IMG/VR virus record: IMGVR_UViG_3300029319_000035
Location: 29,259-62,669 of that record
DNA from: a virus
Reading direction: 5' to 3' (one strand)
DNA: 33,411 nt
Shown here: one piece after another, positions 1-22,807 of the stretch
Position numbering within the stretch: the first letter of the stretch is position 1
Layout: each line of letters opens with the position of its first letter
Translations under genes and position numbers: made by a program
The notes under the pieces: generated by a model
Database searches by the model: none
Told to the model about the DNA's origin: nothing
Seen by the model: the letters and a program-made list of their open reading frames with translations, nothing else

Positions 1-3000
1 CTGATGGATAATTGCTGGCCAGTTTTCATCAGGAAGCTCAATACCTTTCTCTGCTAAGGATTGTCTTAGTCCTTTGAATCTTTCCATAATAGCATCTTGA
101 TAGACCTGATCAATGGTTCTGCCATCAAGAGTCTTGCCCCTTGTTCCTGCCTCACTGAATTTAGATATATTTGTTCTAATCTTCTTATTCTTCTTGGCGT
201 CTACAGTCGGAGCTTGACCATCCGGATCTAGTCCTATAAGAGCACGAATTTCTTGAGCATCCGCCGTTACCATTGCACCAAACCCAAGTTGCATAGACAA
301 AAACGGAGCTTTTACTTCGCCAATACCACGTAAAGTTCTGGCAGCACTATGAACATCTTTTGCAAATAAAGAATCGTATTCAACTCCGCCAGTATACTTT
401 TTACCTAAGATGTTCATTCTGTCAGTGGTCTGAATAATGTCATACGCTAGCTGATAAAAATCAATGTCTTTAAACTGAACCTTTTCTAGTTTTGCAGCCT
501 CAAGCAACTTTTCTTTTTGTTTTTTCAAGGTAGCTACCTTGCTGTTCTCAAAGTCTATTTGCTTTAATATGTTCTCTATTACCTTGTCGTTAGCTTTCTT
601 TTCTTGCGCGTTTTGCAAATCACGTTCTAGGTCCTCAAGTACACTTTCTCTTGCTTCTATTTCACTTGTCAGATCTTCACGCTTTTTTTGTTTAGCTTCG
701 GTTAACTCTAAATCTATATTAGCATTTCTGTCCCAATACATTCTTAAGTTGTTAGAACGGGTCGGGTGGGCAGCCCGAATGTTGTACAGATCCTCAAGAG
801 GGGCAAAAGGTTCTATTGGAAAATTTTTCCTTAGTCTCCTCACTTTTGTATCATCCCCTTTGGGTGGATGCTTGTAAAAAACCTCTATAGTCTCTTCTCC
901 TGGTAGGGCGTCTATTTTAGCTTCCTCAAGAGCCTTTAGCTTCTCACCCCACAGGAACTTTCGATCGCTTGGAGAACTAACCAATAACCCCAAACGCTCT
1001 GCATCTTCTTTTTTAATTTTTTTCTTGTAAGGTATCGTGGATCTGTCAAGTTGAACTTTTATTAAGTGACACAGCTGCTCAAAGCGTTCTAGAAACGCTT
1101 GGCCCTTTGGAGTGACAAACCACGCTCCTGCCATATCCTCCATTCGCACAGTTCCTTTGGCATCAATAAAGCCAAAGTTTACACCAGTCTCTGCACTGAT
1201 CGTTTGACCAAGCACAGCGTTTAAAGAATCTAGTTGGTTACGTTCCGTTAAAGTTTTTTGCAATTGCTCCAGTGGAAGCTCAGCAGCCTGTTGAGACATT
1301 ACCGATGTAAAGTAAGCAACCAACGTGTCTCTATAAGACAACTTGCCTTCTTTAAATTTGCTAAGGTTTATAGATACATTATCTGTTATTTGCTGTATGA
1401 AATCCGGAATACCTTCAAGGTTATCCAGACCGAGCATTTTCTCATAATGCTCTACTCCAGCAAATGTATAATCTCGAACATTTTTACTTCGATACGCTCT
1501 GCGCAGCTTTGAGCGTATTTGTTCTTCAGCTTTTAGTATGACTCTGGCCGACTCTTCTCCGACGATGCTGGCGAGCTTGGACGCCTCACGTCTCTTTTTG
1601 TCAGTCTTTCCAGTAGTAACTTTAAAATCGTCTTGTTTGAATTGGTAGTCAAGATTAAGAGATCCTGTTCTTGTTCCTTCTCGTTTTGTGACATACGTCC
1701 CCTCAGTGTTTTCAAATTTATGTTCTTGTATTGTAACGTCTAGACCAGTGGCTCTCAACTCTTCGGCCAAAGCATCCTGATATCGCTCTACCAAGGAAGA
1801 GCCAATGTCTACTCCTTCAGTTACGTCTTCTGGCATATCATCAATAACTTTATTCAAGAAGTCATTCATTGTAGCTGATTCTGTTGTAGTCAAAGAATCG
1901 AAGTCCTTTTCCAAAACCCTGGTCAGCTCAAAAAAGTTTGCGTCAGGGTTCGTTACCTCTCCAGAGATAGAAATCTTCTTTGTTGGAGTAGCTAAGATCA
2001 ATGACTTTGCACCACTTTTTCGGAGCAAATCTATTTCGGACAAAGAAGCAAACTGACCATCCGCGTGATTGATAACTAACGTAGAACCCTCTAGGTATGG
2101 TTCTTTTGTGGACAGTTCTATTGTTCTGGAAGCTAAATCTTGCTTCTTACGGGCAATTACCAATCGCCGTATCTTACCTTCTGGTGTATGTATAACCAAG
2201 TGATAAACAGGCTCTTGGTGTAAAATCTTAATGGTTTCATCAATAGACTTTACTATTGGCATAACACCAACAAAGTCTGTTTCATTTGTATCAACCAATC
2301 GTTCGCTTTTAATCTGATCGATAGCTTCTTGCTTGGATGCTCCCGAAAATTTCCCAGTGCGACGTGTAGTTCTCTTTCCATTTTTATAATCAGCTATTCG
2401 CCAAACATCATTTTTATCTTGGTAGATTACTACATCTTCAGCAAAATAATTTGGTCGGTACATTCCGCCTGGTATGTCATCATTGTTTGATACAACAGAA
2501 CTTGCTTCTTCGGCAGAAACTGAACGTCTCATTAATGCAGTATTTTGCGCCTTGTATTCTGTGGTAGCGTCTGCCGCAACATTACCCCTGTAAATCGCTT
2601 CAAAAGTCTCCCCTCTTTCCGTTTTTGCAAACAGTGGAACTTGTCTAGGTGGAACAGCATCATACATTTCATTGTTAATTTCAATTCTAATAGAAGCACC
2701 ATCCACTTTACCAGTAGATGAAAATGACCGTGCTAAAGACATAAGCGTGTCTTTGGCGTCAGGACTTCTTAATAGGTTAAAATGAACAGCATTTCTTCCA
2801 TCCTTGGTAGCCTCAAACACAATGTTTCGAATTTCAATGTCATTCAAACCATCATCACCAACAATAAACAACTCATTGTCTCTGACATCTACAGAAAACG
2901 AAGACTCTATTGTTTCAGTCTCACTTTGCCGAATGAAGGAGTAGTTCTGAGTAATAGGAGTTTTATCCAAGTACGCTTGAATTTGCTCTGAAAGTTCCTC

Positions 3001-6000
3001 AGGCATTGTTCCTTCGTTAATGCGTTCTTGAACTTCTTGCCTGGTAAAGCCAGCAAAATCATCTTCATAAATTGTAGATATCTGCAGTTTGTTTTGCTCG
3101 AGCTTTTGATTCAGTTCATAAGCACCTGCATTTTCAGAAACGCCAATCCACTTCTTTACACTTGAACCCTGTTGTGATGGCTCATCCGATTCTAACAAAC
3201 TTTCAACATCAAGTCCCAAGGAAGACAACTTAGGGTTTTGATTGAGAGGAATAACAGGCAAGCCTATTTCAATCATTCTATTGCGAACGTTGTCTGTTAT
3301 TTTGATAGCACTGTAAGGAACACCATTCGGGTCTTCGATAAGTACTTCCTGAAAAGAAATGCCAGCTTGCTTTAACTCAGACCTAATCTTGCTACCATAA
3401 GCTAAGTTGTCAGCTTGATAAGCAATAAAATCTGGACGCTCGTCACTCAGAAGAAGCTCACGAAGAGCAAGTCTTGCATCACCAAACAAGTTGTTCAGTT
3501 CCTTGGGTGGATTTTTTGCTAGTCTCTCTTGCTCGTGCTTTATCTTCTGCTTAATCAAAGCCTCTTTCTTTTTCCTTAGCTTTGTGTCCCTTATCAGTTT
3601 AACAAAACGTAATTCAAGATACAGGTTTGATATGTTAGATGCTACGTCCGATGAAGGGGTGTTTACAGCATCCAAGAACATTATTGAGTTATCTCCAAAC
3701 TCAGCACTTCGTAAAAGCAAATGAGAGTTACCTCGTTCCATTATGACTTCATTTTCACTTCTGCCTCTGAAGAAAATACTTTCAATTGTTACAGATGGTC
3801 TTTCCGTAACCAAGTTAATACTAGCCTTCCTAAGTTCCTCAGAAGCTTTGGCCCACCTAGGGTTTGTGGATAAGTCCTCTTCCCTTAGTATGCTCTCGTA
3901 AAACTTTTCATCTGTAATTCTAATGTCTTCTATCGAAGCCTCAATGCGCTCGGTTGACTCTCTTATGGCCTTGTTTGCTTCATTTCTTTTGCTTCGAATA
4001 ATCTGATCTATTTTGGTAATGGTAAATTGGCTTTTTACTTCTTCATATCCCTTTGCGTCTATTTCCTCAGAGAGTGACTTCACATCAAAAATGTTACTTT
4101 GTTTTCCAAAGTATTTTTTAAGTTGCTCGTTGCTTGTTGCTCTTTGTATCTCTACTGCGTAGCTTTGGCTGCTTCGACCTCGAATGTCTTCTAGAAGTTT
4201 TTTTGCTTTATTGATAATGTTGGCTTGATCATAAAGGCCTTCAGCTATCTCTGGAGTATCTAGTCTTTGCTGAGACAAACTAGGGTGAATTGGTAAATTT
4301 ACCGCAGTATCAACATAAGACGCCCTACCAAGTTTTCCCGCCTTGGCATTGTTTGTTTTTTCAGTAACCTTCAAATGCTCTTGATAAGACTGCATCACTG
4401 GTTTGCTTATCACACGTGATTTGTTTTTCTTTGCTTTACTGCGGCTCTTGGACAGTTCTCTATCTCTAACATCTCTACTGCTGAAGTTGTCAAAGTATCT
4501 GTTGAGATTGTAATTGAAATCTTTTTTCCTGACTTCAATCTCAGCTGGATTCTTTTTGAGCTGATAAAAAACATCATCAACTTCCCATTTGTATCGAGAG
4601 AATCCTTCTTTCATTTTTTCCATTATAAGTATCTTAGAAACACGAAGCCTTATGTCAGCGTGTTCTTCTAAGGATAGCTTATGAGGCTCTGCAAGGTGTA
4701 TTTCTCCAATCTCTATTGAGCCACCTACCTTTCTGTAAAACACGTGAGCATACTTGTCCTTATAAGATATAAGAGCCTTGTCGTATTGATCCATCTTTTT
4801 GGAAGGAGCATTGTAATTCACATCTGAAACAACTTCCAAGGTAGAGTTATCAACAAATGTGTAGTCCTCTGCATCTTTGATATATCTTACAATCTCGTCA
4901 ATCTTATTACCTGGGAGTTCTGACAGATTTAAAAAGTCAAACAAACCCAATGATTTTAAATAGGCTTCTTCTCTAAATAATAATGTCTTGTCGAAGTAAT
5001 CAAGCAAATCAGGCAGGCTGACATTCTCTTCCAAATCATTCTTGAAGGAGCTAATTTCTGATAAGACGCCTTCTGATTCTAATCTATCTATTCGTAGCCT
5101 TTCAAAAAACTTAACAGGATCTTTTCCTCTTACTACTGCAGATACTGTCAAGACAGCCATCTGAAAATCAACACTGTCGATATCGTTTCCAATTTTCGAA
5201 GACACTGCTGCCAAGGCTCTATGTGCTCTTTGGTATCCGTTTGTCTTCTTTAAATCAATGTACAGACCAATTAAACCTGGCAACCCTTCAGGACCTTTTT
5301 CTCCTTTTTGTTTTGCTCGATCCTCTAGCTTTTTGGATATGTTTTTTACCAAGACTTCATTACCTGTAATCAAAGCATCAGCTAAGGTTTGAACTGTTCT
5401 TTTGTTGGCAGCAGTCATATTCTGTACAGCCAGTGCTGCATCCGTTCTACTTTCACCAAACCGATTATAAATAATGTCAATCATATCAGATCGTTCAATC
5501 ATAACTTTATTCTTGCTTGGCTTCATACCTTGAACTATGGTGTTATCACCATTCTTGTTCGCGATATGACTGTAAACGTACCCTTGGTGAGATAACAATC
5601 TTGCTACTCCCCCTTCCGATCGATAATAACTGTCCAGTATTCTAGCTTGTTTATTAAGAGGAATTAAGTCGTGAATGTGCATATATGCTCTGGAAGTAGC
5701 AGGATTAAATGCACCAGCACCCAAAAATGCCCCCTCAATACCTCCAATCAAATAGCCTGTTAACGCTGACGCTGTAGTTTCCAGAGCACCTCGAGCAACA
5801 TATTGTCCCGGTCGATCTTTGTAGTATTGATCCTGTCTAATTTTTTGTACGGCCTGTTCGTAAAGTTCTTGATTTCTAACTGGTATTTGCCCTGTAGGAT
5901 CTTTTGGGGTGGTCATTTCAATAAATAACCCACCAGCAAGAGGGCTAACTCCTTCATACAAAGAAGCACCAACAAACTGCTTTACAGTTTGAGCTGTACT

Positions 6001-9000
6001 GGTGCTCGGAAGAGCGCGGGCTGTTTGCGCACCAAACATAACACCCTTCGTTAGTGTAGAAGGGTAAGAAAGGAAAACGCCTTCGTGATCCATCATAACG
6101 GCCTGAGCAAAACCTAAGTCTGTAGCTGCGCTATATAAAGGTCCTGATGTAGCCCCCAGTCCCACTACCAACTGTTGCTGACCTACCATAAAATCGCTGT
6201 CTTGATAAGTTAAGCCATCTACGATTCTTTCCTGCCAACTAAGTTCTAAGTTTCTTGTCGGAGTAAAATACTCCGGAATATACTTTTCATAGTGTGCTTC
6301 TAGTCCAGCAATACCACCTATAGGAACAGGAGCGTCTGGGAGCAATAAAGCTAAACCAGGACCTGCCATAGGGGTTAAACCAACAAAGTCTCTTAGGTTT
6401 ATTGCTCCAGACAAAGCAAATGGAACGTGGTCCAAAGCGTTTGTTCCTGCAAGAGCAAGTTCTCTACCAAAAAATTTATCAGCTGACTCTAAGTAAGGAA
6501 GCGAAGTCTCATATTGGCCTGGAAAGTTTTCTTTAATATATTCTTTGGTCCATTCCATAAGCTGATTGTAAGATATCTTTGGCTTGACATCAAACATCCC
6601 TTCCGCGTCTGTCTCCACTAACAACAACTCATAATTAGCTTCTATGTGGTCAAGTAGGTCTTCGCCGATAACTGGGTTTTCAAAAAACCAAGCCATCGGA
6701 TGCAGAGGCTGGCCTTCAAAATCTTCATCGCCGACTGCTTCTAAGCCGCCTGCTTGATTTTTCAACTCTTCATATCTACGCGCCCATTCAACATTCCAGC
6801 TGTTCCATCCTCCCCCTAAAACATCAGCGACAGTTGGCCCTAACACAAGTTCTTCTGGCAAAACCAAACCATATATATCATCTAAACTTAAGGCGAATGG
6901 CATTTCAGCAATACCGGCTTCAGCAACGGCAGACCCCTGCTCAAACAAAAACATTCCAAGACCAGACTCTTTGGATATAGTTCCAGCCTGAACGTCTACA
7001 GATGTGTTTCTTAAGGCGTAGTCCACCCCTTCATTAAACGTGCTGGTAAATGTTTGAAGTTGTGCTCCAGCTTCTAACTGTCTGCTGTAAGCAAGCAAGT
7101 CATCCCATTTAACTCTATTCTGCTCAACCGCGTCTTTTACAGTGGCAAATGGTCCTAAGCTATCGCCGCCAAAAAATGACTGTAAAGCCTGTGGTAAATC
7201 TCTTATGGGTACTTCAGCAAAGCTAGCCTCTAATAACTCGTCTTCACTGTTCATCATTGTGATTTGCCGCGCTACAGGAGTAGCAGCCATACCCAATGGA
7301 TTTTCACCATACTCGTATACGTCTTTCAAGGTCTGATCGGATTGTCGTAACTGCTGCTTTACTTTGGATATGTTATTTGTGTCTTCAAAAAAGATTTGTA
7401 AAACAGCCTCTTCTTTATTGGCATCGGATAAATTTAAATAATACCCTTGTGTCGCTATATTAACAAGACTTTTGATAAAAGGGTCGTCCGCCACGTATGT
7501 TTTCTTAGGATCGTATTCTTTGTAATACAAGTCCCAAAAGCCCGTAACAAACACTTCCCAGTTGATATCTTCCATTTGTATGGTTTCATACGTTCCATTG
7601 TTAACATTCTGAAGTATTTCAGAAGCCAACTCTTCTTCCTTGGATTCTAAGTCTTCTAAAGCATTTTCAAAAGCAAAGTCAGGAGTAATTATATCAAACC
7701 CTCTAACCTCTAGACCAGAAATAATACCTAAAACATCAAACCCAAGAGGAGCTCCTCGTCGATTTTCAAGCTCCAGATATACTTGTGTTAATGTATCTCG
7801 TTCTCTGATTACTTTATCGAGCTGTTCTTTTATTTGCTGCTTTGTCTCTGGGTCTTCTTCTTCGTTAAACCTTTTCGTCAAGGTAATAGCATTGTCCGAA
7901 GCATTATCTGCTTGAACTCGCGCCACGTTTATTTCCTTGTCTGCAGCACCACCAAAAATTTGTGTTGAACCAACAGTTATAAGATCATCAGCACCTTCAG
8001 AAACTTTCTGAAACATACCTCTTTCATCTGGCCCAAACGCTGCAGTTAAGTAATCTTTCCACTCTTCGTGGTTTTGTTGGTAGTCAAACTGAATTTCCTT
8101 TTCTAATTCCCTTGCAAAAAGTTTATTTGGGTCATCCTCGCTACCAACAGAAGGTAACAGGACGTCAAGATTGGCAAGCTTACTAAATACTATGAAATCC
8201 TCTCTTCTGATACCAGCCCCTCCTTGAGGTTTATCTGCAGCCTTAGAAAATTCCAGTAATGGCACATAGCGTTCAGGCATCGACCAACCTGTTTCCCAGC
8301 TATCCTTCTCAAGTGTTGGGGTAAGTCTTTTTGCATCCTCAATTTTCGCATCAAAAATTTCTTGAGTTACTTGTACAAAAGACGCGTAGTCTGTGATGCC
8401 TAGTTCTTGAGCAAGCCTTTTTACCGCTTGCTCGTCACGAGTTCTTGGGTATTCAGTGTAAACGCTGAAGACCTCTTCGAAGTTTTGTTTGAATGTAAGT
8501 GACCCATCTTGAGTTCGTTCATCCATACCACTGGCCATACCAGTAATAAACCGTTGCCATTTTAAAAGCTGTTCTTGGTTTTCTCTAAGAAGCTGAATGC
8601 GCTCAGGCTCTGTTTGAGCATAATAATTTTCTGCTTCCTTGGATTTGCTTGGATCGGCAATACCAAGAGAAACAAGGTCTGCTCTTTGGGTTTCTTTTGA
8701 ACGCTCTACATAATCTTCATAGTAGTCATCAAGGCCACTGGGAACACCATACGCAGCTATGAATAAAGCGTTTAGCTCAGAATCGGCTGCTTTCGCTTCT
8801 TGACGAAATTGTTTATTAACTCGCGCAAGAATTTTATCGCGATCGGCCGGAGTTCTAGAATAAAAATCACCCACTTCCTCTACGGCTCTGTTCAAAACAA
8901 TTTCATCAATCTGATCTTTTGCATTCAAGTATCTAGTTATCGCAGAATCTTTTCCGGTAAAGTCTGCTACTTTATCAGCTGGCAACCGACTTACAATTGG

Positions 9001-9732
9001 ATCAGCAGGGTTCAAAGGTGTAAGTTTATTTTGCTGCGCCCATAAGTTAAAAGTATTCACCGTGTTGATAAAGCTATCTAAGTCTTCTGATGTTTCCAAA
9101 CCCTTCCCGAAATCTTTTATATCTATGCTTTCTTTAACCTCTCTTCCAATAATTTCCTTAATGTTGGATTTTTGATTTTGAATGTTGTTGATATGGGTCA
9201 AGTAGTATGACTTGTATGTTGAAAAAGTTAAGTTCCGTAAAGCACCTATTTGTTCGTCATTAAAACGACTCTTATCAAAATTATCAAAGGTTTTTTGAGC
9301 CTCTGCCATTGCAAAATCTGTCACTTCTTTAAGAAGCGCGTCTGTGTCCAAAAAAACTTCTTGTGGCGTAATTTTTCTAGGCTTTGCCACTTCCACTGCT
9401 GATGGCTCTGCCACTTCCACTGTTGATTTTATATAAGCTTCTCTAACTTTCTCTTGGTCTTTCTTAAACTGCTCTTCGCTTATTAACACCTCTGGAAGTT
9501 CAACCTTAGGCTTTGCGTAATCCATTACTATGTTAATGTAACGCTGTGCCGCTGGTGTAGGATTTTCTCCAAGAATCTTTTGTTCATCAAGAACTTGTTT
9601 CCAGCTGTCCATATTAAGAGGAAGGCCTTGTTGTAAAATCTTCTTGTGGACCGACAAGTAAATTTTACGGTCAACTCCTTCTTCATGTATAAATTTATTC
9701 AGTTCTTCAAAGAGTTCTTGGTCGGTGGCCAT
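1..9732 (-). CDS. Giant virion-associated polyvalent protein (C-terminus outside the window)
   Basis: An uninterrupted frame of 3,244 codons runs from the ATG at 9732 to the left edge with no stop, so the protein is larger still. The start has AGGTAA just upstream, overlapping the stop of the preceding gene. Most of the protein is charged and helical. Gly/Ala-rich hydrophobic stretches lie near residues 1105-1144, 1177-1213 and 1319-1342. Residues about 1985-2165 resemble an ADP-ribosyltransferase-like module (FFRGRS, then ITDNVRNRM...GLP). A coiled coil lies near 3010-3085. Residues 3134-3142 (LRGIGEVKA) with Asp3158 look like a helix-hairpin-helix glycosylase core. I read only one cysteine (Cys2888). 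Known parallels are the giant ejected or polyvalent proteins of podoviruses; assignment as an ejected multi-enzyme protein is inference. I saw no T7/N4-type RNA polymerase motifs. The frame is certain, the function is not. Confidence 0.85.
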   Translation of the reverse strand, partial: MATDQELFEELNKFIHEEGVDRKIYLSVHKKILQQGLPLNMDSWKQVLDEQKILGENPTPAAQRYINIVMDYAKPKVELPEVLISEEQFKKDQEKVREAYIKSTVEVAEPSAVEVAKPRKITPQEVFLDTDALLKEVTDFAMAEAQKTFDNFDKSRFNDEQIGALRNLTFSTYKSYYLTHINNIQNQKSNIKEIIGREVKESIDIKDFGKGLETSEDLDSFINTVNTFNLWAQQNKLTPLNPADPIVSRLPADKVADFTGKDSAITRYLNAKDQIDEIVLNRAVEEVGDFYSRTPADRDKILARVNKQFRQEAKAADSELNALFIAAYGVPSGLDDYYEDYVERSKETQRADLVSLGIADPSKSKEAENYYAQTEPERIQLLRENQEQLLKWQRFITGMASGMDERTQDGSLTFKQNFEEVFSVYTEYPRTRDEQAVKRLAQELGITDYASFVQVTQEIFDAKIEDAKRLTPTLEKDSWETGWSMPERYVPLLEFSKAADKPQGGAGIRREDFIVFSKLANLDVLLPSVGSEDDPNKLFARELEKEIQFDYQQNHEEWKDYLTAAFGPDERGMFQKVSEGADDLITVGSTQIFGGAADKEINVARVQADNASDNAITLTKRFNEEEDPETKQQIKEQLDKVIRERDTLTQVYLELENRRGAPLGFDVLGIISGLEVRGFDIITPDFAFENALEDLESKEEELASEILQNVNNGTYETIQMEDINWEVFVTGFWDLYYKEYDPKKTYVADDPFIKSLVNIATQGYYLNLSDANKEEAVLQIFFEDTNNISKVKQQLRQSDQTLKDVYEYGENPLGMAATPVARQITMMNSEDELLEASFAEVPIRDLPQALQSFFGGDSLGPFATVKDAVEQNRVKWDDLLAYSRQLEAGAQLQTFTSTFNEGVDYALRNTSVDVQAGTISKESGLGMFLFEQGSAVAEAGIAEMPFALSLDDIYGLVLPEELVLGPTVADVLGGGWNSWNVEWARRYEELKNQAGGLEAVGDEDFEGQPLHPMAWFFENPVIGEDLLDHIEANYELLLVETDAEGMFDVKPKISYNQLMEWTKEYIKENFPGQYETSLPYLESADKFFGRELALAGTNALDHVPFALSGAINLRDFVGLTPMAGPGLALLLPDAPVPIGGIAGLEAHYEKYIPEYFTPTRNLELSWQERIVDGLTYQDSDFMVGQQQLVVGLGATSGPLYSAATDLGFAQAVMMDHEGVFLSYPSTLTKGVMFGAQTARALPSTSTAQTVKQFVGASLYEGVSPLAGGLFIEMTTPKDPTGQIPVRNQELYEQAVQKIRQDQYYKDRPGQYVARGALETTASALTGYLIGGIEGAFLGAGAFNPATSRAYMHIHDLIPLNKQARILDSYYRSEGGVARLLSHQGYVYSHIANKNGDNTIVQGMKPSKNKVMIERSDMIDIIYNRFGESRTDAALAVQNMTAANKRTVQTLADALITGNEVLVKNISKKLEDRAKQKGEKGPEGLPGLIGLYIDLKKTNGYQRAHRALAAVSSKIGNDIDSVDFQMAVLTVSAVVRGKDPVKFFERLRIDRLESEGVLSEISSFKNDLEENVSLPDLLDYFDKTLLFREEAYLKSLGLFDFLNLSELPGNKIDEIVRYIKDAEDYTFVDNSTLEVVSDVNYNAPSKKMDQYDKALISYKDKYAHVFYRKVGGSIEIGEIHLAEPHKLSLEEHADIRLRVSKILIMEKMKEGFSRYKWEVDDVFYQLKKNPAEIEVRKKDFNYNLNRYFDNFSSRDVRDRELSKSRSKAKKNKSRVISKPVMQSYQEHLKVTEKTNNAKAGKLGRASYVDTAVNLPIHPSLSQQRLDTPEIAEGLYDQANIINKAKKLLEDIRGRSSQSYAVEIQRATSNEQLKKYFGKQSNIFDVKSLSEEIDAKGYEEVKSQFTITKIDQIIRSKRNEANKAIRESTERIEASIEDIRITDEKFYESILREEDLSTNPRWAKASEELRKASINLVTERPSVTIESIFFRGRSENEVIMERGNSHLLLRSAEFGDNSIMFLDAVNTPSSDVASNISNLYLELRFVKLIRDTKLRKKKEALIKQKIKHEQERLAKNPPKELNNLFGDARLALRELLLSDERPDFIAYQADNLAYGSKIRSELKQAGISFQEVLIEDPNGVPYSAIKITDNVRNRMIEIGLPVIPLNQNPKLSSLGLDVESLLESDEPSQQGSSVKKWIGVSENAGAYELNQKLEQNKLQISTIYEDDFAGFTRQEVQERINEGTMPEELSEQIQAYLDKTPITQNYSFIRQSETETIESSFSVDVRDNELFIVGDDGLNDIEIRNIVFEATKDGRNAVHFNLLRSPDAKDTLMSLARSFSSTGKVDGASIRIEINNEMYDAVPPRQVPLFAKTERGETFEAIYRGNVAADATTEYKAQNTALMRRSVSAEEASSVVSNNDDIPGGMYRPNYFAEDVVIYQDKNDVWRIADYKNGKRTTRRTGKFSGASKQEAIDQIKSERLVDTNETDFVGVMPIVKSIDETIKILHQEPVYHLVIHTPEGKIRRLVIARKKQDLASRTIELSTKEPYLEGSTLVINHADGQFASLSEIDLLRKSGAKSLILATPTKKISISGEVTNPDANFFELTRVLEKDFDSLTTTESATMNDFLNKVIDDMPEDVTEGVDIGSSLVERYQDALAEELRATGLDVTIQEHKFENTEGTYVTKREGTRTGSLNLDYQFKQDDFKVTTGKTDKKRREASKLASIVGEESARVILKAEEQIRSKLRRAYRSKNVRDYTFAGVEHYEKMLGLDNLEGIPDFIQQITDNVSINLSKFKEGKLSYRDTLVAYFTSVMSQQAAELPLEQLQKTLTERNQLDSLNAVLGQTISAETGVNFGFIDAKGTVRMEDMAGAWFVTPKGQAFLERFEQLCHLIKVQLDRSTIPYKKKIKKEDAERLGLLVSSPSDRKFLWGEKLKALEEAKIDALPGEETIEVFYKHPPKGDDTKVRRLRKNFPIEPFAPLEDLYNIRAAHPTRSNNLRMYWDRNANIDLELTEAKQKKREDLTSEIEARESVLEDLERDLQNAQEKKANDKVIENILKQIDFENSKVATLKKQKEKLLEAAKLEKVQFKDIDFYQLAYDIIQTTDRMNILGKKYTGGVEYDSLFAKDVHSAARTLRGIGEVKAPFLSMQLGFGAMVTADAQEIRALIGLDPDGQAPTVDAKKNKKIRTNISKFSEAGTRGKTLDGRTIDQVYQDAIMERFKGLRQSLAEKGIELPDENWPAIIHQ

Positions 9733-9734
9733 AC

Positions 9735-10169
9735 TTACCTCATTAATTCAATTATGATCATCTTATCATCCTGATCATCATATGGCATCATCATATGTTC
9801 CCTTTCCAGTACATCGTTCATTTTGTCTCTTGTCTTTGTGGCCTTGTGATTTCCTATGGGCATCATTTCTTGGGCAGATTCCAAGACAAATGATTCAACA
9901 TCAGCTCGAGGAGGATTGAATACCACACCCTCGTCAATAACCTCAACTGTTCCATCAGCAAGAGGATCACCCGTGTGTAGCTTCACTTCTTCTCCAGTCT
10001 CTCTGTCGTGAACGTGAGCACACAGACCATTTTCAATCTCGTGTATTTTGGTCACCAAGAATCGATCGGTAAGATATCTGCGGTAGTGCTTAGACTCTTC
10101 CGTGGAAGACATATCATCTATGATCGCTTGGTCTAGATCAACCATTTTATCTGATGGACACGTATTCAT
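9735..10169 (-). CDS. Hypothetical acidic protein, 144 aa, upstream of the giant gene
   Basis: Not recognised. The ATG at 10169 is preceded by a good ribosome binding site (TAGGAGA, about 6 nt away), and the stop lies 2 nt before the giant gene, so the two are probably co-translated. The middle (residues about 30-80) looks like a small beta-rich domain, with RFLVTKIHEIENG, a VHDRETGEEV turn and DGTVEVIDEG. The C-terminal part is rich in Met and acidic residues (MMMPYDDQDD). Unlike the large proteins on either side it contains two cysteines (CPSDK near the N-terminus and GLCAHVH). A chaperone or assembly helper for the giant protein, or a minor virion component, would fit its position, but nothing in the sequence proves either. 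Confidence 0.75.
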   Translation of the reverse strand: MNTCPSDKMVDLDQAIIDDMSSTEESKHYRRYLTDRFLVTKIHEIENGLCAHVHDRETGEEVKLHTGDPLADGTVEVIDEGVVFNPPRADVESFVLESAQEMMPIGNHKATKTRDKMNDVLEREHMMMPYDDQDDKMIIIELMR

Positions 10170-10188
10170 TATTTCTCCTAAGGATTTT

Positions 10189-12186
10189 TTATTTTGATAA
10201 CTGAGCTTCTATAATGTTATATCTGTTGAAATCTCTCATTTGATCAACAATCTGTTCTGTTCCATCAGGAGCGACCAATCTAAACTGAGGCCTACCATTT
10301 TCCCCAATTGTAATGTAAACCTCAAAGTCATTTAACATCATCACAGGCTCACCAGTTTTTAATTGTTTTTCATAGGCAGATTTTATTTTAGTATTGGCAA
10401 TTAATTTTTTTCCTTCTGGCATCGCATCAAGTATGTCTGCGTCAACAGGACTGACAGGAATTTCTTCAGTTGTACCTAGTCCACTTGTTGTAATTGGAAG
10501 GCCACCACCACCTGCCATTTCTGCTCGTCTGTCTTCAACCTCTCGAGCCATATTACTGTAATATGCACTAAGAACTGGCATAGACATTTTATTTACCATT
10601 GCTTGTATTTGTTCTGAGCTAAATTCAGGATTCCCGCGCTTTTCGTTCAGCCATAGAATCTCTCCAATGAGGGCCATTCTGTCGCTCGTTGTAACTTCTG
10701 GCTCTTTCTCCTCTTTGTCTTTTTTTCCAGAGAAAACGCCACGTATTCGGTCCATTACAGGAGGGCGCATTGATTCATCAACAACTCTTCCCTGATCGTC
10801 ATAGAATCCTTCTAGTGGATCTCTTTTAAATCTACCGCGAATTAGTGGGTCTAGATTTTCTACTGGAGGAGGTTCTTCGGGCTTTTCGGTTGGGATAAAA
10901 TCAATCTCTGCCGGCGCAAACTCAAAGTCAAAGTCATCCTCTAGTTCGTCTGTATCTTTCCTCTTAGGTATTTCAATCTCTGGACGACGCATTTCAATCT
11001 CTGGACGAGGTATTTCAATCTCTGGACGACGCATTTCAATCTCTGGACGACGCATTTCAATCTCTGGACGACGCATTTCAATCCCTGGACGAGGTATCAT
11101 ACCTGCTATATCAAGATCGATGTCTCGGCTTCTCTCAATGGGTTCTCTACGCTGTATAGCCCCTGCTTGTTGAAATGGAGAGCCTAATCTTAAGTTGCGT
11201 ATACCTAACTCCGCAAGACCTCCATAGATGTCTGAGGTGTCTCCAGAAAGAGCTTTCTCCAGCTGCTCTGACAAACCAATCTTCTGCATTTCCAAAGCAT
11301 CTATTTGGTCTTGTATTTGCTTATTCTTTGCTTCTGCTGCTTGACGTTGTTTCGCTCTATTTATTTCTGCTTTTTTTCTTGCTGCGTCAAAAGACGTATC
11401 AATAAATACTCCTGTCCCAGAAGAGCCTTCAAATTTTTTTTCAGCCTTATCTTTTGTCTCTTTTTTAATTTCTTCATAGGCAACGAAGCTTGGATCGTCT
11501 AACCTCCTTGAAGCAGATTCAGGATTTAGACCATACACACCTTTGAAAGCATCATAGAATTTTTCGAAATCTATATCCGACATTTCTTCTACATCACTAA
11601 AAGTGGTAACCTTGTCGTATCCTTCTTCGCTTGGAACACCATACAAGCTTTTCATTGCCGTTTTCAGTTTTTCTTCCCTTGCTGCTGGGTCTGGAAAAGC
11701 GTCTCTAAGCGTAGTTTGTAACCCTTTGGCATCTATGACGTCTCTAAAAGCTCCTATCCCGGTAGTATCAGCAATTTGTTTAGCGATGTCTTCAATGTTG
11801 CTTACTGCAAAAGCATCGTCCATAGCATCGTCTATTTTTTTCTTGCTAACAATTAATGCTTTTGTGGCTGCTTTTTCCTTACTAGATGCAACTCTGTCTG
11901 CGGCTCGTTTATCTGTAGCCGCACTCATTTTATATCGAGTAGTTTCATCTGCAATAACTTTTTCAATGTCGTATTCAGATTCTTTCTGCCTTTCCAACTT
12001 GTCTATTCGAGCTTGGATATCAGATCTCATCTTGGTTAATGTTTTTGGAGGTAAGCCAGCAAGACGCTCAAGCAACTGTTGGTTCATTGCAAAGCGTCGA
12101 TTGGTAAAAGAACTCAGGGTGTTAATGAATACAGATCCAGCAACGTACGGTTCAGTCGGGTCAAAAAATGCTTGTGTAACAGCCAT
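10189..12186 (-). CDS. Probable internal virion protein with heptad-repeat linker, 665 aa
   Basis: No family is recognised. The first ~300 residues are strongly helical and charged, with coiled-coil candidates around 45-60 (LERLAGLPPKTLTKMRSDIQ region) and 265-310 (AEINRAKQRQAAEAKNKQIQ region). A low-complexity linker follows at about 360-410: near-identical copies of a seven-residue unit (M/I)(R/P)RPEIE, encoded by a 21-bp tandem repeat, then an acidic stretch (DELEDDFDFEF) and a Pro-rich segment. A folded C-terminal domain (about 500-665) contains FEVYITIGENGRPQFRLVAP. The protein has no cysteine. It sits between two other cysteine-free proteins and the giant gene; internal/ejected virion protein is inferred from position and composition. 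Confidence 0.75.
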   Translation of the reverse strand: MAVTQAFFDPTEPYVAGSVFINTLSSFTNRRFAMNQQLLERLAGLPPKTLTKMRSDIQARIDKLERQKESEYDIEKVIADETTRYKMSAATDKRAADRVASSKEKAATKALIVSKKKIDDAMDDAFAVSNIEDIAKQIADTTGIGAFRDVIDAKGLQTTLRDAFPDPAAREEKLKTAMKSLYGVPSEEGYDKVTTFSDVEEMSDIDFEKFYDAFKGVYGLNPESASRRLDDPSFVAYEEIKKETKDKAEKKFEGSSGTGVFIDTSFDAARKKAEINRAKQRQAAEAKNKQIQDQIDALEMQKIGLSEQLEKALSGDTSDIYGGLAELGIRNLRLGSPFQQAGAIQRREPIERSRDIDLDIAGMIPRPGIEMRRPEIEMRRPEIEMRRPEIEIPRPEIEMRRPEIEIPKRKDTDELEDDFDFEFAPAEIDFIPTEKPEEPPPVENLDPLIRGRFKRDPLEGFYDDQGRVVDESMRPPVMDRIRGVFSGKKDKEEKEPEVTTSDRMALIGEILWLNEKRGNPEFSSEQIQAMVNKMSMPVLSAYYSNMAREVEDRRAEMAGGGGLPITTSGLGTTEEIPVSPVDADILDAMPEGKKLIANTKIKSAYEKQLKTGEPVMMLNDFEVYITIGENGRPQFRLVAPDGTEQIVDQMRDFNRYNIIEAQLSK
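10970..11095 (-). repeat. 21-bp in-frame tandem repeat, six units
   Basis: Six consecutive 21-bp units begin at 10970, 10991, 11012, 11033, 11054 and 11075. The core is atttcaatctctggacga on the plus strand, with gc or gt variation at the junction and one t-to-c change in the leftmost-encoded unit. The unit is a multiple of three, so it stays in frame and encodes repeats of (M/I)(R/P)RPEIE in the 665-aa protein. The array should be prone to copy-number change by slippage. Confidence 0.95.
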
Positions 12187-12189
12187 TGT

Positions 12190-13464
12190 CTACTTCCTTA
12201 ATTTCGCAATAAATTCATCACTGGCATTTGGTATACCTATATCTTTCAAAATCTCTCTTATCTTAGCATCATCCATTCGTGGAGCGAACCGTAACTGTCT
12301 CATTGCTTTTGTCGCTTCTTTCTCTTCCAATAGCTTACCTTGTTTTGCTGCTTCTGCGTACAAAGCATCAACTGTCTCTGTTTTTGGTTCGATTGCTCCT
12401 GCTGCAGCCACATCTCCAAAGATTGAGCCAAGTGCTCCTGCAAAGCTAGATACAGCCGCCCTCTTTTGCTTCTGTCTTTGACCTTTGTAAGCAATCATCT
12501 GTTCCATACGTCTGAGGTTTTGATCGGCTTTAGCTAAATCAGCCTGCGCCAATGTCATTCCGGATTGTCTACCCACTTCTGCAATCGTTTGTTGTTCAGC
12601 TCGTCTACTTCTCTCTAAGTCTGCAGCAGACAACTCGCCTCCCATAGCGGCTTCACCTGCTTCTCTTCTCATTCTTTCTTCCCTGGCCATTCCTCTTACG
12701 GGGGCCATTTGAGCCTGTACAAGCAGTTTCTTTTCTTCAGCAGACAACCCCATTTCATCATCTGCTTGCATCTTTCGAAGTCGAGCAAGTTCTTCATCTA
12801 CATACTTCTCATCTTCGCCTTTTAACCTTTCAAATGCTCCTAACTGAACAGCCAAGTCCAGTCCTCCAAGAATTGCTGCTGGTCCAAGTTTAAGTGCTTG
12901 ATCTCTACGCTGTGCCTTTCTTCGCTCTGCAATAAGGGCTTCTTTTTCCTCTTGTCTGTTGCCTATCCTTGCAATTGCCTGTTTTTCCTCGAGAGTAAGT
13001 GGTGGAACTAACTGTGCCACCGAAGGTGTTATGTACTCTGGAGGTGGCTTTCCAATAGGAGAACCTTCTTCTCTTGTTGACAACAAAGGATTTAGAGAGG
13101 GATCTCTTAATCTTGTTTGGTAGGTCAATAAGTTTTCTAAAACTTTAGAGTATGTGTCATCTGCATCAGTGGGGGAAAATGTCTTCTCTACTGTGGTACT
13201 TCCAAACCCTGGAATTGTAGTTATTGTGCCATCATCATTAACTTTAAACTTGTTTCCTGCGTCATCTTGTACAATGCCATCAGCACTGTAAGCAAGCAAT
13301 TGCTTCCATTTGTCTTCGCCTGTTGGTAAAGGAGCTGTCCCTGAGGTTATTTCTCTAATCCTACGCTTCTCTTCTTCAGTCAACGTATGACCTTTAGATT
13401 CAAGATCCGCAACAGGGTCATATGTCCCCTCTGAGAATTTAGTTGTGTCTCCATATATAGCCAT
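12190..13464 (-). CDS. Probable internal virion protein, helical, 424 aa
   Basis: No family is recognised. The N-terminal ~150 residues are mixed and polar and hold a short beta-rich stretch (GNKFKVNDDGTITTIPGFG). From about residue 165 the protein is highly helical and charged (EEKEALIAERRKAQRRDQAL and onwards), with one hydrophobic helix (LKLGPAAILGGLDLAVQLGA). A second Gly/Ala-rich hydrophobic stretch lies near 345-365 (AVSSFAGALGSIFGDVAAAG). Charged coiled coils with amphipathic Gly/Ala segments are typical of podoviral internal core/ejection proteins (T7 gp15-gp16 type organisation), which is the basis for the inferred role. There is no cysteine. It lies 3 nt from the next gene and 2 nt from the previous one, so it belongs to one translation unit with them. 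Confidence 0.75.
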   Translation of the reverse strand: MAIYGDTTKFSEGTYDPVADLESKGHTLTEEEKRRIREITSGTAPLPTGEDKWKQLLAYSADGIVQDDAGNKFKVNDDGTITTIPGFGSTTVEKTFSPTDADDTYSKVLENLLTYQTRLRDPSLNPLLSTREEGSPIGKPPPEYITPSVAQLVPPLTLEEKQAIARIGNRQEEKEALIAERRKAQRRDQALKLGPAAILGGLDLAVQLGAFERLKGEDEKYVDEELARLRKMQADDEMGLSAEEKKLLVQAQMAPVRGMAREERMRREAGEAAMGGELSAADLERSRRAEQQTIAEVGRQSGMTLAQADLAKADQNLRRMEQMIAYKGQRQKQKRAAVSSFAGALGSIFGDVAAAGAIEPKTETVDALYAEAAKQGKLLEEKEATKAMRQLRFAPRMDDAKIREILKDIGIPNASDEFIAKLRK

Positions 13465-13466
13465 CG

Positions 13467-13979
13467 TTACGCCACTCCATATCCGTACATTTTATTCATT
13501 GCTGCATCATACTGAGACACGCCGCCGCCTCCCATCATAGATACAATGTCGCTATCAGTATCCGCTTCTACAATTGGTGCTAAGTCAGGACCTCTCTTCC
13601 CTCCTTCTTTCGCTCTTTTGGAAGCTCGTAATGCGTCCCTCTGAGCTTGCTTGGCAAGCTTCTCTTTGTCTTTACTCAACCGGAAAGCACTTTGTAATTG
13701 CTTGAACTCTGCCATATCTTGTCTTGATTGACCAAGCATACCACCAACCAATCCTATTGCACCACCAACAAATGCTCCTACTGCGCCAAGTCCTACATCT
13801 TTACCCATCTTATAACCCTGAGCAGCCCCTTGAGCAGCACCACGGCCTCCAGCCAAAAGAGTGTCCTTTATATCTGTTGTATCCGACAATGTAGGAGCAT
13901 CCTTGTCTAGATACCCTGCTGACTTAGCACTGTCGTATCTCTCTTGGGCTTTTTTGTTGTCATATGATGTCAATGCCAT
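13467..13979 (-). CDS. Glycine-zipper protein, probable membrane-inserting virion protein, 170 aa
   Basis: Residues about 44-82 form a long glycine-zipper stretch (GRGAAQGAAQGYKMGKDVG followed by GAVGAFVGGAIGLVGGMLG), with small residues every three to four positions and a hydrophobic core long enough to span a membrane. A very basic, Lys/Arg/Ala-rich helix follows (LSKDKEKLAKQAQRDALRAS), then a short tail with GGGG. There is no signal peptide and no cysteine. Glycine-zipper segments pack helices in membranes and are found in phage ejection proteins. A role in forming or sealing a channel across the host envelope during DNA entry is inferred. It is the first gene of the cysteine-depleted block that ends with the giant gene. 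Confidence 0.75.
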   Translation of the reverse strand: MALTSYDNKKAQERYDSAKSAGYLDKDAPTLSDTTDIKDTLLAGGRGAAQGAAQGYKMGKDVGLGAVGAFVGGAIGLVGGMLGQSRQDMAEFKQLQSAFRLSKDKEKLAKQAQRDALRASKRAKEGGKRGPDLAPIVEADTDSDIVSMMGGGGVSQYDAAMNKMYGYGVA

Positions 13980-13986
13980 CTTTCAC

Positions 13987-14718
13987 CTACCTGTAAATTA
14001 CTTCAATGTGCATATTGCGTTCACGAACCATTACTTGATAAAAATTATACGGACCTGGACCTGGAGATGAAGGTACATCTGGTGCAGCCTTAACCCGAAC
14101 ACTAACATTATTCATACCTCGATTCAATGTAATCATAGCCGATATAGAATGGTTCTTGAAAGCAAAACCATCAAAATTCCAATACAGGTATCGTTCTGTA
14201 CCACTTACTTTTGTATCGTTTACATATAAAGCAAACGTAGCTGCCAAAACATCATTGTGTTCTACCTTGTCACGAGTTAAACCAGCCGTAGGAGTATTGT
14301 CGTCTAAACCAGAGTTTCTGTTTCCACTTACCGCTTCTTTTTCCAAACAAAAGAAACACGAGTTCACGATAGCTACACAAGTCTCGCCTTCATCTTGGTT
14401 GAGGTCTGCATATATGGTTGCGCTCAGACCAGGGATCGGAACATAGCCCTGTGAAATGTCATTTGTAATAACAAACGTATACAAGTTGTTACTAACCTGT
14501 CTGGTGTGCAAATCACTGCTTACAAGCAATGTTCTTGGCGAAGGAGCACCATAGAACTCCGGACGAACAATCTTGCGCTCCTTGCACCATTTTAAGCTTG
14601 TATCAAAGTCTGTAGAATCAATACCACCATTGATAAAGTCTTCTAGTTTCTGGAATATGGAATTGACCGCACTAGCTGTCAACGTTCCCGCTGTTAATGT
14701 AGGTATTGAAATAGGCAT
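13987..14718 (-). CDS. Tail appendage/fibre-like protein 3, 243 aa
   Basis: Third of three consecutive tail-appendage-like genes of similar size. It starts with a short beta/helix module (IPTLTAGTLTASAVNSIFQK) resembling the first 45-50 residues of the next two proteins, which probably attaches it to the tail or to a partner. The rest is beta-rich, with alternating hydrophobic residues, as in a jelly-roll or Ig-like sandwich (YLYWNFDGFAFKNHSISAMI; final strands YNFYQVMVRERNMHIEVIYR). It contains several cysteines (ETCVAIVNSCFFC). Its ATG shares one base with the upstream stop (TAATG), so translation is coupled. Tail fibre, spike or capsid-surface appendage is inferred from fold style and position after the tail tube genes. 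Confidence 0.65.
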   Translation of the reverse strand: MPISIPTLTAGTLTASAVNSIFQKLEDFINGGIDSTDFDTSLKWCKERKIVRPEFYGAPSPRTLLVSSDLHTRQVSNNLYTFVITNDISQGYVPIPGLSATIYADLNQDEGETCVAIVNSCFFCLEKEAVSGNRNSGLDDNTPTAGLTRDKVEHNDVLAATFALYVNDTKVSGTERYLYWNFDGFAFKNHSISAMITLNRGMNNVSVRVKAAPDVPSSPGPGPYNFYQVMVRERNMHIEVIYR

Positions 14719-15416
14719 TATCTTTTAATCACTCTGGCTAACATTTGCACTGAATCGACTATAGCAAAAGCATTGGATGCAGTTCCGTTCGCTTCTATTA
14801 CTTTCCCCTGTAACGCGACAGCAACATTGTGAGTACCTAAGTTGAAATCTGATGGACGAATGGCTGCAACAATTGTACAGCTATAACGAGTCCGAGCGTG
14901 ATGTTGTGAACCTGTACTGCCTATTGCTATAAAATTATTGAACCTTCTTTCTGTGCCCTCAACGTAATTTAATACAACCCCTGCACCTACATCATCCCAC
15001 AACAACCGGAAATGAACTTCTTGTCCACCTCTACCGTGTGAAGCTATGCTAGAGGTCGTTACGTTTGTTCTGAAACTAAACGAACAATTAACCAGTATCC
15101 ACTCATAATCTTCACAGGTTATTGCAGCTGTTCGTCCCACCATTATTGGATGACCCGACGTGTCATTCTGAACAGTGGTGAATAGGTTACTGGTAATTGT
15201 GTGATCTGTATCCGAAGAATACAAATACACACCCTCTGTTTTAAAAACTTTCTGAACAGAACTAGAGTCTAAGTTTCTTCTGTCGATTCCCTCGTCTCGA
15301 ATGTTATCAGCATTGATTGCGGTTGGGACAGCATTTACCTCGTTGATAAATGTATTCAATGTATCAACCGTTATCTCATCACCAATCTTTATCGATGGTA
15401 TTGTAATAAAAGCCAT
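14718..15416 (-). CDS. Tail appendage/fibre-like protein 2, 232 aa
   Basis: The N-terminal module (KIGDEITVDTLNTFINEVNA, then INADNIRDEGIDRRNL) has the helix plus 'N-x-x-x-x-G-I-D' turn common at the start of small phage tail-fibre and fibre-adaptor proteins. A beta-rich C-terminal domain follows from about residue 60, with strands such as AAITCEDYEWILVNCSFSF and HNVAVALQGKVIEANGTAS. The upstream and downstream genes have the same plan, suggesting duplication followed by divergence. The stop overlaps the next ATG by one base. No enzymatic motif is visible. An appendage built of related subunits is an inference. Confidence 0.65.
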   Translation of the reverse strand: MAFITIPSIKIGDEITVDTLNTFINEVNAVPTAINADNIRDEGIDRRNLDSSSVQKVFKTEGVYLYSSDTDHTITSNLFTTVQNDTSGHPIMVGRTAAITCEDYEWILVNCSFSFRTNVTTSSIASHGRGGQEVHFRLLWDDVGAGVVLNYVEGTERRFNNFIAIGSTGSQHHARTRYSCTIVAAIRPSDFNLGTHNVAVALQGKVIEANGTASNAFAIVDSVQMLARVIKR

Positions 15417-15418
15417 TG

Positions 15419-16072
15419 CTACCTCTTCTTTGCCTGAACAACAAGATTACGATCTTTAATTGTATAAAAGAAAGCTTCACTCTCTTCTATCTTACCTAAG
15501 TTGTTTCTAAATATCTTTGCTTCCACAGACACCTTTATTTGCCCTGCAACCGCCTGCAAAGCACCAGTCATATAAGTGCTCTGTGATTGACGCATAAAAG
15601 GGTAGCTGAAAGTCTTACAAACATCCTCTCCTTGGATGCGTAAACGAAAGTCTGCAAAGTGTTCCTGAACCTCGTGGTAATCATTCATATCAAAAAAGTA
15701 GTTTCCCCAGTTGGTGCTTACTCCAGATTCATAACTATCCAAAACAGAAGTACTGTCAATTTCCCAAATAAAATAACAACCAAAATGAGCCACCACTACA
15801 CAGTCAACAGGCACGTCCAAAGTCATCGACATTACCTCAACAAACTGAACACCCTTGTCTTTCATCTCAAAATCTGTAAGAGACGCTTGTGTTTCAATAT
15901 CATTAAAGGTTTCGTAGTCTATTAAATTAGAACCGATTCCCTTTTCCGGAAGGTTCTCTCTGTCCAGATTGCCGTTGATCTCGTGAGCCAACGTTTGCAT
16001 ATTTTGTCGAATCCTGGTTGGCTCTACAACCTCACCAGTTCTAACCTCAAATTTTTTGTACTTGAATCCCAT
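15419..16072 (-). CDS. Tail appendage/fibre-like protein 1, 217 aa
   Basis: First of three similar-sized proteins after the large tail protein. The start (KFEVRTGEVVEPTRIRQNMQ, then INGNLDRENLPEKGI) matches the N-terminal plan of the next protein: a helix, an Asn-rich turn and a Gly-Ile motif. A beta-sandwich-like domain follows (SMTLDVPVDCVVVAHFGCYF; GALQAVAGQIKVSVEAKIF) and the protein ends with a strand and a basic tail (RNLVVQAKKR), as the next one also does (MLARVIKR). The ATG shares its last base with the stop of the 717-aa tail gene (TAATG). A structural tail component is likely; the exact place in the tail is unknown. Confidence 0.65.
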   Translation of the reverse strand: MGFKYKKFEVRTGEVVEPTRIRQNMQTLAHEINGNLDRENLPEKGIGSNLIDYETFNDIETQASLTDFEMKDKGVQFVEVMSMTLDVPVDCVVVAHFGCYFIWEIDSTSVLDSYESGVSTNWGNYFFDMNDYHEVQEHFADFRLRIQGEDVCKTFSYPFMRQSQSTYMTGALQAVAGQIKVSVEAKIFRNNLGKIEESEAFFYTIKDRNLVVQAKKR

Positions 16073-19577: not shown

Positions 19578-19591
19578 CGGGCACTCCAATT

Positions 19592-22234: not shown

Positions 22235-22807
22235 CTACATCATATTCATAATTTCTTCGTCTTCAGGAGACACATCATCAGGCATTCTGCCAGTCTCCAT
22301 TTCGGCTTCAGACATTGCTGCCTCGTCCTCTTCTGGAGCTTCCTCTGGTCCTGCTTTCAATGCTTCCATCAGCTTTTTGTCTTTACCCATTCGCTTGAAG
22401 TTTGCAGCACCTTTAGCAAGGGCCGTATCAGATATCAAGTCTTCTGGGTTCATCACATACTTTTCATATCCACCAAGCTGGGAAATGAATCCCATAATCA
22501 CAGCAAAAGGTACATAGACCTCAGCAGGTAGAGGAGCATCTAGTTTCTTCTCTCCCTCTGGTGGATTATATTCTGCAGCCTGCATAGACTCATCTACACT
22601 TCCAACAAAAGAGTTCATAGCATCTGCAAACTTATCGATAGCTTTATATGTATAAGGCTTCTCTGGTTGAGGTGCTGTGGCAGCAATTTGCTCAATCTGC
22701 GCTCTCTGTTGTTCTTCTTGAGCCATCATAACATCTTCAGGACTCGCTTGTCCCTCTGGTGGCATACCTTGTTGTTGTTGCATCATTTCTTCTTGTTCTG
22801 GATTCAT
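22235..22807 (-). CDS. Acidic structural-region protein, 190 aa
   Basis: Not recognised. The N-terminus is Gln/Met-rich (EQEEMMQQQQGMPPEGQ). A helical middle contains KAIDKFADAMNSFVGSVDES and VYVPFAVIMGFISQLGGYEK. The C-terminal ~45 residues are strongly acidic with many Met (EEAPEEDEAAMSEAEMETGR). It starts next to the stop of the zinc-ribbon gene and ends 8 nt before the scaffold gene. An assembly co-factor, second scaffold component or minor head protein would fit; it has no enzyme motif. Confidence 0.65.
   Translation of the reverse strand: MNPEQEEMMQQQQGMPPEGQASPEDVMMAQEEQQRAQIEQIAATAPQPEKPYTYKAIDKFADAMNSFVGSVDESMQAAEYNPPEGEKKLDAPLPAEVYVPFAVIMGFISQLGGYEKYVMNPEDLISDTALAKGAANFKRMGKDKKLMEALKAGPEEAPEEDEAAMSEAEMETGRMPDDVSPEDEEIMNMM

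Follow-up and report, generated by a model that had tools for sequence, protein, structure and literature searches.

Near-absence of cysteine from a predicted set of ejected proteins in an SU10-like short-tailed phage and its uncultured relatives

The ejection proteins of T7 and P22 are established (reviewed in PMC8954989), gp20 to gp24 of SU10 were found experimentally to be lost upon genome release (PMC9509320), and gp71 to gp73 of the N4-like phage DEV are ejection proteins (PMC10925440). That the N4 virion RNA polymerase (vRNAP) lacks cysteine was noted, and explained by its passage, by Kazmierczak 2002, as relayed in PMC2784036 and PMC3915230; for N4-type vRNAPs the absence has been tied to injection and to passage through the tail or periplasm (PMC3715699). 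Large, cysteine-free, helical internal proteins from the short-tailed virions of StenR_269 and the Zobellviridae have been proposed to be injected (PMC10747016). The survey of polyvalent proteins by Iyer et al. 2017 reports a zincin-like domain in N4 vRNAP and makes no mention of cysteine (PMC5512222). No general cysteine rule for ejection proteins was found in the literature searched, a body that leaves most subscription papers outside. What appears to be new here is how widely the pattern holds, the figures put to it, and another cysteine-free cargo protein, encoded near the terminase genes.

The window analyzed here is a stretch of 33,411 nucleotides, bases 29259 to 62669 of a 62,669-base virus record (IMGVR_UViG_3300029319_000035), whose relevant features are given in Table 1. 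Its base 1 adjoins a 10-N scaffold gap (record 29249 to 29258) that lies inside the gene of a giant protein. Beyond the gap the same frame stays open for another 2,003 aa and closes with a stop at record 23235. Because the two parts share a frame and ungapped giants of relatives reach 5,092 and 5,371 aa, we read them as one gene encoding about 5,251 aa in all (record 23235 to 38990), a figure that depends on the true length of the gap; the 3,244-aa length is a product of the window border.

On the late strand, the adaptor and nozzle genes are followed by ejection-type genes arranged from small through middle to large, with the appendage genes as the upstream border of the cysteine-free block. 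Relatives having the block in place keep the succession nozzle, appendages, small, middle, large, giant. The locus shares with SU10 (Kuravirus) an adaptor matching profile PF24175 above its cut-off, a weak SU10-type portal (PF23899, below cut-off at 26.3 versus 30 bits), the placement of ejection genes after tail genes, and a glycine-zipper motif common to gp22 and the 170-aa family; all five SU10 ejection proteins (gp20 to gp24) lack cysteine. The locus differs in that the largest SU10 ejection protein has 1,473 aa and in that the 424-aa, 665-aa and giant proteins have no detectable homology there. As in N4-like phages (Schitoviridae; gp50 with gp51 and gp52, or DEV gp71 to gp73), a cysteine-free giant bearing an HExxH domain is encoded with two smaller cysteine-free proteins; gp50 is ejected with the DNA in those phages, as we would predict for the giant. 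Unlike gp50, however, the window's giant has no detected polymerase and is half again as long, and the window differs from N4-like phages in its SU10-like portal and adaptor and in its four cysteine-free genes plus a cysteine-containing insert. T7 (gp14, gp15 and gp16) and P22 (gp7, gp20 and gp16) likewise encode small, middle and large proteins of near-zero cysteine content after the nozzle, and T7 gp16 has a transglycosylase homologous to that in the cysteine-free fourth protein of one relative, but each of these sets has three proteins, none longer than 1,318 aa, and lacks giant cargo. Polyvalent proteins (PMC5512222) are also very long, modular and encoded beside virion genes, and relatives share their ART-PolyVal, LysM, HExxH and ParB/DdrB-like modules, whereas in the window's giant the HExxH motif is the only recognized catalytic module. 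The modules of relatives' giants thus fit the polyvalent-protein pattern; for the window's giant a catalytic role is no more than a possibility.

Table 1. Locations of the features discussed, in window positions or, where marked L, in the loci of relatives
Feature	Location	Strand	Cysteines	Remarks
Giant protein (residues 1 to 3,244 of about 5,251)	1..9732	(-)		Continues beyond window
144-aa protein	9735..10169	(-)	2	
665-aa protein	10189..12186	(-)	0	Fourth-gene type
424-aa protein	12190..13464	(-)	0	
170-aa protein	13467..13979	(-)	0	
Three paralogous appendage proteins (243, 232, 217 aa)	13987..16072	(-)	4, 3, 3	
Nozzle protein	16072..18225	(-)	5	
Adaptor, SU10 type (PF24175)	18222..19589	(-)	4-5	
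Scaffold-like 325-aa protein	21249..22226	(-)	0	By position, no ejection candidate
190-aa protein	22235..22807	(-)	0	Between portal and scaffold
160-aa protein	22808-23290			Between portal and 190-aa gene
Second large protein, example	L113:633-7331:-	(-)		
Second large protein, example	L143:13491-19520:-	(-)		
Second large protein, example	L110:4629-11345:+	(+)		
Second large protein, example	L126:6378-11759:+	(+)		

Cysteine counts in the genome and its relatives

The original prediction held that the 170-aa, 424-aa, 665-aa and giant proteins, being depleted in cysteine, leave the particle together. Our recount agreed with the claimed absence of cysteine from the first three and confirmed its presence in the 144-aa, appendage, nozzle and adaptor proteins. 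The single cysteine (residue 2888) claimed for the giant was also found within the 3,244 window residues, but the protein does not end there; in its full length, cysteine occurs at residues 2888 and 4701 only (2 in about 5,247). Overlooked had been the scaffold-like 325-aa and 190-aa proteins of the virion module, which are cysteine-free as well. The four block proteins together contain 2 cysteines in 6,510 aa, with 51 in 6,198 aa (0.82%) in the other structural proteins of the genome and 186 in 13,409 aa (1.39%) in all remaining proteins together, so that 54 to 90 would be expected (naive binomial P, about 1e-20 to 1e-36). Nearly all of this single-genome signal comes from the giant (P about 1e-16), followed by the 665-aa (P = 0.004), 424-aa (P = 0.03) and 170-aa (P = 0.25) proteins; taken one by one, only the first two are clear outliers, and the last is uninformative alone. 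Since the 170-aa and 424-aa proteins are too short for power singly, power was taken from relatives. At the opposite extreme, the 160-aa protein has CxxC pairs, resembles a zinc ribbon, and belongs to a family with 5% cysteine (144 in 2,883).

A terminase (TerL) scan yielded 54 related loci. The second half of the giant had a homologue in 20 of the 35 records searched; these 20 were analyzed in full and, with the window's own, gave a set of 21 giants from uncultured phages, 2,313 to 5,371 aa in length and mostly 17 to 27% identical to the window's giant half (closest relative, 32%). The 21 giants contain 8 cysteines in 69,624 to 69,632 residues, and 15 of them contain none. A second scan brought another 18 giant frames, possibly including duplicates of a single virus, with 10 cysteines in 44,391 residues. 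Among all giants counted, we saw no homologue with ordinary cysteine content. The shorter members of the block behaved alike, with 0 cysteines in 3,065 aa for the 170-aa family (20 genomes), 1 in 4,660 aa for the 424-aa family (11 genomes) and 0 in 16,553 aa for the fourth-gene types at the 665-aa position (n = 18). The scaffold family (0 in 6,392 aa; n = 20) and the 190-aa family (1 in 4,408 aa; n = 21) were equally depleted. Cysteine content was 0.80% in the nozzle family (127 in 15,910 aa; n = 20), 0.63% in the adaptor family, 0.97 to 1.41% in the appendage families, 0.43% in the coat family and 0.30% in the portal family. Searches further afield gave little: the coat protein and the giant's second half had no tblastn match in 50,697 phage records, a single-protein pattern scan using the giant had no match, and bacterial genomes scanned with its C-terminal alignment held no relative; the nozzle search matched HMO-2011-like, Pseudoalteromonas and Paenibacillus phages, weakly.

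For the composition-matched expectation that had been proposed as a check, we used a Poisson regression with the remaining 19 amino acids as predictors, trained on about 1,000 background proteins. It predicted 568 to 625 cysteines in the giants, of which 8 were observed, and composition as sole cause is rejected. We give no exact P value because the background is overdispersed (Pearson 2.7), and a bootstrap of concatenated background proteins was set aside, its pool having included the cysteine-free block, scaffold and second-cargo genes. Cysteine alone collapses in the giants (log2, -6.9; about 115-fold); the next most reduced residues, His (log2, -0.84) and Trp (-0.76), are both down less than twofold, and Phe and Tyr are ordinary. 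A block of genes might also lose TGT and TGC by chance or mutation, through biased codon use or because a DNA motif is avoided; we found nothing in favor of this. In the coding frame of the giants these codons (TGY) have a frequency of 0.11 per 1000, compared with 13.6 in the background, but outside that frame the triplets stay at background level (28.8 versus 28.2 in frame +1 and 50.6 versus 49.1 in frame +2). The loss is confined to the coding frame and therefore reflects selection on the protein; a DNA-level cause is refuted by this frame test, and we give it practically no credence.

Ejected proteins of known phages and the specificity of the mark

In phages of known biology, ejected proteins were likewise depleted. 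Cysteine counts were 1 in 2,360 aa for T7 gp7.3, gp14, gp15 and gp16, 0 in 4,294 aa for N4 gp50 to gp52 (vRNAP alone, 0 in 3,500), 0 in 1,309 aa for P22 gp7, gp20 and gp16, and 0 in 2,956 aa for SU10 gp20 to gp24, giving 1 in 10,919 aa for the known or inferred ejected proteins of the four phages, in which we class T7 gp7.3 and N4 gp51 and gp52 as ejected by analogy or on general background. The other virion proteins of T7, N4, P22 and SU10 have about 0.7% cysteine. Predicted ejected proteins of HMO-2011 (gp22 to gp24) contain 0 in 1,794 aa, and gp45 to gp47, gp49 and gp50 of crAss001 contain 7 in 7,478 aa.

Judged from sequence, the 170-aa, 424-aa, 665-aa and giant proteins are very probably the ejection proteins and cargo of an SU10-like short-tailed phage, purged of cysteine at the protein level. 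Their presence in the virion, their exit, their individual roles and the selective cause are what we infer from these comparisons. That the four travel together gains from depletion across 21 divergent genomes, from its restriction to cysteine and to the coding frame, and from its occurrence in the ejected proteins of T7, N4, P22 and SU10; the mark by itself proved nonspecific, since the scaffold and 190-aa families are cysteine-free too. Alternatively, the block may consist of internal head proteins of an elongated, helical and charged sort that, like scaffolds, generally lack cysteine, and ejection would then not be the reason. Besides those two families, which judged by position are not ejected, the scaffolds of T7 and P22, lambda gpV, the N4 coat and some tail fibers of 600 to 970 aa are cysteine-free. 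However, the portal and coat, inside or on the head, retain 0.3 to 0.4% cysteine, and the giants, at 2 to 5 kaa and with ordinary Phe and Tyr and enzyme-like domains, fall far below the regression on 19 amino acids; we regard this explanation as unlikely.

The 144-aa protein had been predicted to stay behind. Its family is limited to the four closest genomes, with 2, 1, 0 and 1 cysteines, or 4 in 562 aa (0.71%), an ordinary virion level (P about 3e-7 at the cysteine-free rate and 0.68 at the virion rate). The prediction is thus favored by a virion-like rate but has only four homologues to draw on, one of them without cysteine, and the protein is likely non-ejected, as predicted from these 4 cysteines. 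Relatives have a small gene inserted between their second and fourth cysteine-free genes that comes in two unrelated kinds, one containing cysteine (14 in 1,134 aa; six genomes) and one cysteine-free (1 in 1,437 aa; eight genomes). Finding cysteine is informative, whereas finding none in a short protein is not. On this basis, the cysteine-containing insert and the 144-aa protein are probably non-ejected, and at a guess they could have an accessory or chaperone role. Which kind of insert is present differs by genome (L124:16181-16735:- and L127:9334-9867:+ versus L116:522-1094:- and L146:14940-15491:-).

Predicted roles of the block proteins, the giants and a second cargo protein

The four proteins would be packed inside the filled head and would exit by way of the portal, the adaptor and the nozzle, either before the DNA or together with it. 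The 170-aa family has a glycine-zipper, membrane-like segment whose motif resembles the C termini of SU10 gp22 and P22 gp7; by analogy, the 170-aa protein may be the membrane-inserting piece. Profile comparison of this family with T7 gp14 and N4 gp52 revealed no similarity. The 424-aa protein is a candidate conduit piece, again by analogy; its family had no similarity to SU10 gp21 and gp23 in profile comparison, and neither it nor the 665-aa protein had homology to known ejection proteins. No peptidoglycan hydrolase domain was recognized in the 665-aa protein of the window. Among relatives, one genome has an M23 peptidase in its fourth protein and a different genome has an SLT transglycosylase there, the latter aligning to T7 gp16 (E = 2e-7), and the second protein of that SLT-bearing genome aligns to SU10 gp23 (E = 2e-5); with such relatives, the 665-aa type may be the wall-crossing piece. 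Mid-chain, the 665-aa protein has a tandem peptide repeat (RPEIEMRRPEIE...).

By analogy, the giant would be a polyvalent protein of several domains that is sent towards the cytoplasm. Its conserved C-terminal core spans residues about 4010 to 5020. A domain at residues about 3270 to 3594 (L003:13197-14171, left of the window) is present in all 21 giants, and its HExxH motif is intact in 9 of them, the window's included. In the other 12 of 21 the motif is lost while the surrounding sequence is still recognizable, hinting at a structural role kept after catalysis was lost. Some relatives' giants add ART-PolyVal or LysM, and in the window's giant no catalytic module other than the HExxH motif was recognized. 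Sequence searches of the PDB with the giant gave nothing usable. AlphaFold2 modeled the C-terminal core poorly (pLDDT, 47) and the HExxH domain fairly (pLDDT, 67; core, 85 to 93); Foldseek with the latter matched no solved structure significantly; its viral matches were weak, and one of these was named a polyvalent-associated protein.

Could the giant be an N4-type vRNAP, with cysteine absence as a family trait of the enzyme? Gene place and size are alike, both proteins are cysteine-free, and the giants of some relatives carry a different HExxH domain that matches the vRNAP profile phrog_2206. That match, however, spans only about positions 2012 to 2250, an HExxH region past the polymerase domain; the window's giant has no match of this type, and an N4 vRNAP query matched no giant. 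No giant scanned had a profile or phmmer match to a T7-like single-subunit polymerase domain. With matches confined to the HExxH region, membership was rejected, and we consider such an origin very improbable. The StenR_269 and Zobellviridae proteins differ from the giants in having been called vRNAPs on size and cysteine absence (PMC10747016); giants without a detectable polymerase bear the same marks, so these two properties are not enough to call one.

In seven relatives whose giants are short (2.4 to 2.6 kaa), a further large protein of 1.4 to 2.2 kaa (longest, 2,238 aa) is encoded away from the block, near the terminase genes and on the late strand (Table 1), with 2 cysteines in 12,535 aa across the seven. 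It bears an ART-PolyVal module, a ParB/DdrB-like one or the HExxH region of vRNAP type, and parts of its sequence have homologues among the interior modules of long giants (G029, G033, G026 and G030; E values to 2e-98). Modules of one kind thus lack cysteine whether they sit inside a giant or in a protein of their own encoded at another site, which is what a mark tied to delivery, rather than to the place of the gene, would predict. This phage family encodes some very long proteins whose modules shift between the giant and a separate protein.

Tail type and the cause of cysteine loss

In the proposed mechanism, chains would most likely leave in an extended state and regain their fold beyond the reducing cytoplasm. 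Accidental disulfides or adducts on thiols would block delivery there, and cysteine would be purged for this reason. The cause originally suggested was unfolding through the portal and tail. If threading were enough, cargo delivered through contractile tails would be expected to be cysteine-free as well, which it is not. T4 Alt and P1 DarB are injected proteins, and we presume the same of the phiKZ vRNAP subunits gp178 and gp180. Cysteine counts are 3 in 682 aa for Alt, 9 in 2,255 for DarB, 5 in 1,451 for gp178 and 2 in 490 for gp180 (0.3 to 0.44% each; together 19 in 4,878, about 0.4%), in a comparison that spans three lineages only. Contractile-tail cargo is therefore cysteine-poor at most mildly, and, as these proteins leave via a tube yet keep cysteine, threading is not the whole cause.

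What, then, strips cysteine here while contractile-tail cargo retains it? With ejection itself accepted, the agent could be exposure outside the cytoplasm, to an oxidizing periplasm and Dsb enzymes, during conduit assembly, in place of threading; a periplasmic reason for cysteine absence has been proposed before (PMC3715699). The contrast of 19 cysteines in 4,878 aa of contractile-tail cargo with 1 in 10,919 aa of short-tailed ejected proteins speaks for it, as do tape measures, which reach the envelope and are cysteine-free (lambda gpH, 0 in 853; T4 gp29, 0 in 590). Against it, P1 DarA (1 in 639) and DdrB (2 in 995) are themselves lowish within those three contractile lineages, and gp13 to gp16 of the Paenibacillus phage API480, short-tailed and with a Gram-positive host, contain 0 in 2,359 aa, their ejection being itself inferred. 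In a Gram-positive host neither an outer membrane nor a Dsb periplasm is expected. We place this periplasmic account a little short of an even chance. The API480 block favors a wider cause, exposure plus refolding outside the reducing cytoplasm, which is the one we prefer on the few lineages at hand.

Near-total cysteine exclusion may, more generally, be a signature of proteins that leave the virion and act outside the cytoplasm, driven by extracytoplasmic exposure and not by threading, that lists the ejected proteome, off-operon cargo included, with sequence as the only input. This reading, which we put forward tentatively and as somewhat more doubtful than not, takes in short-tail ejection proteins, giant cargo, tape measures and the second protein beside the terminase. 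Ejection proteins diverge fast, so that homology rarely finds them, and a mark of about 0.01% cysteine over tens of thousands of residues would offer a homology-free listing of the injected proteins of a short-tailed phage.

The 2,237-aa tail-associated endolysin gp181 of phiKZ (L170:24335-31048:+) contains 1 cysteine, unlike the vRNAP subunits of the same phage.
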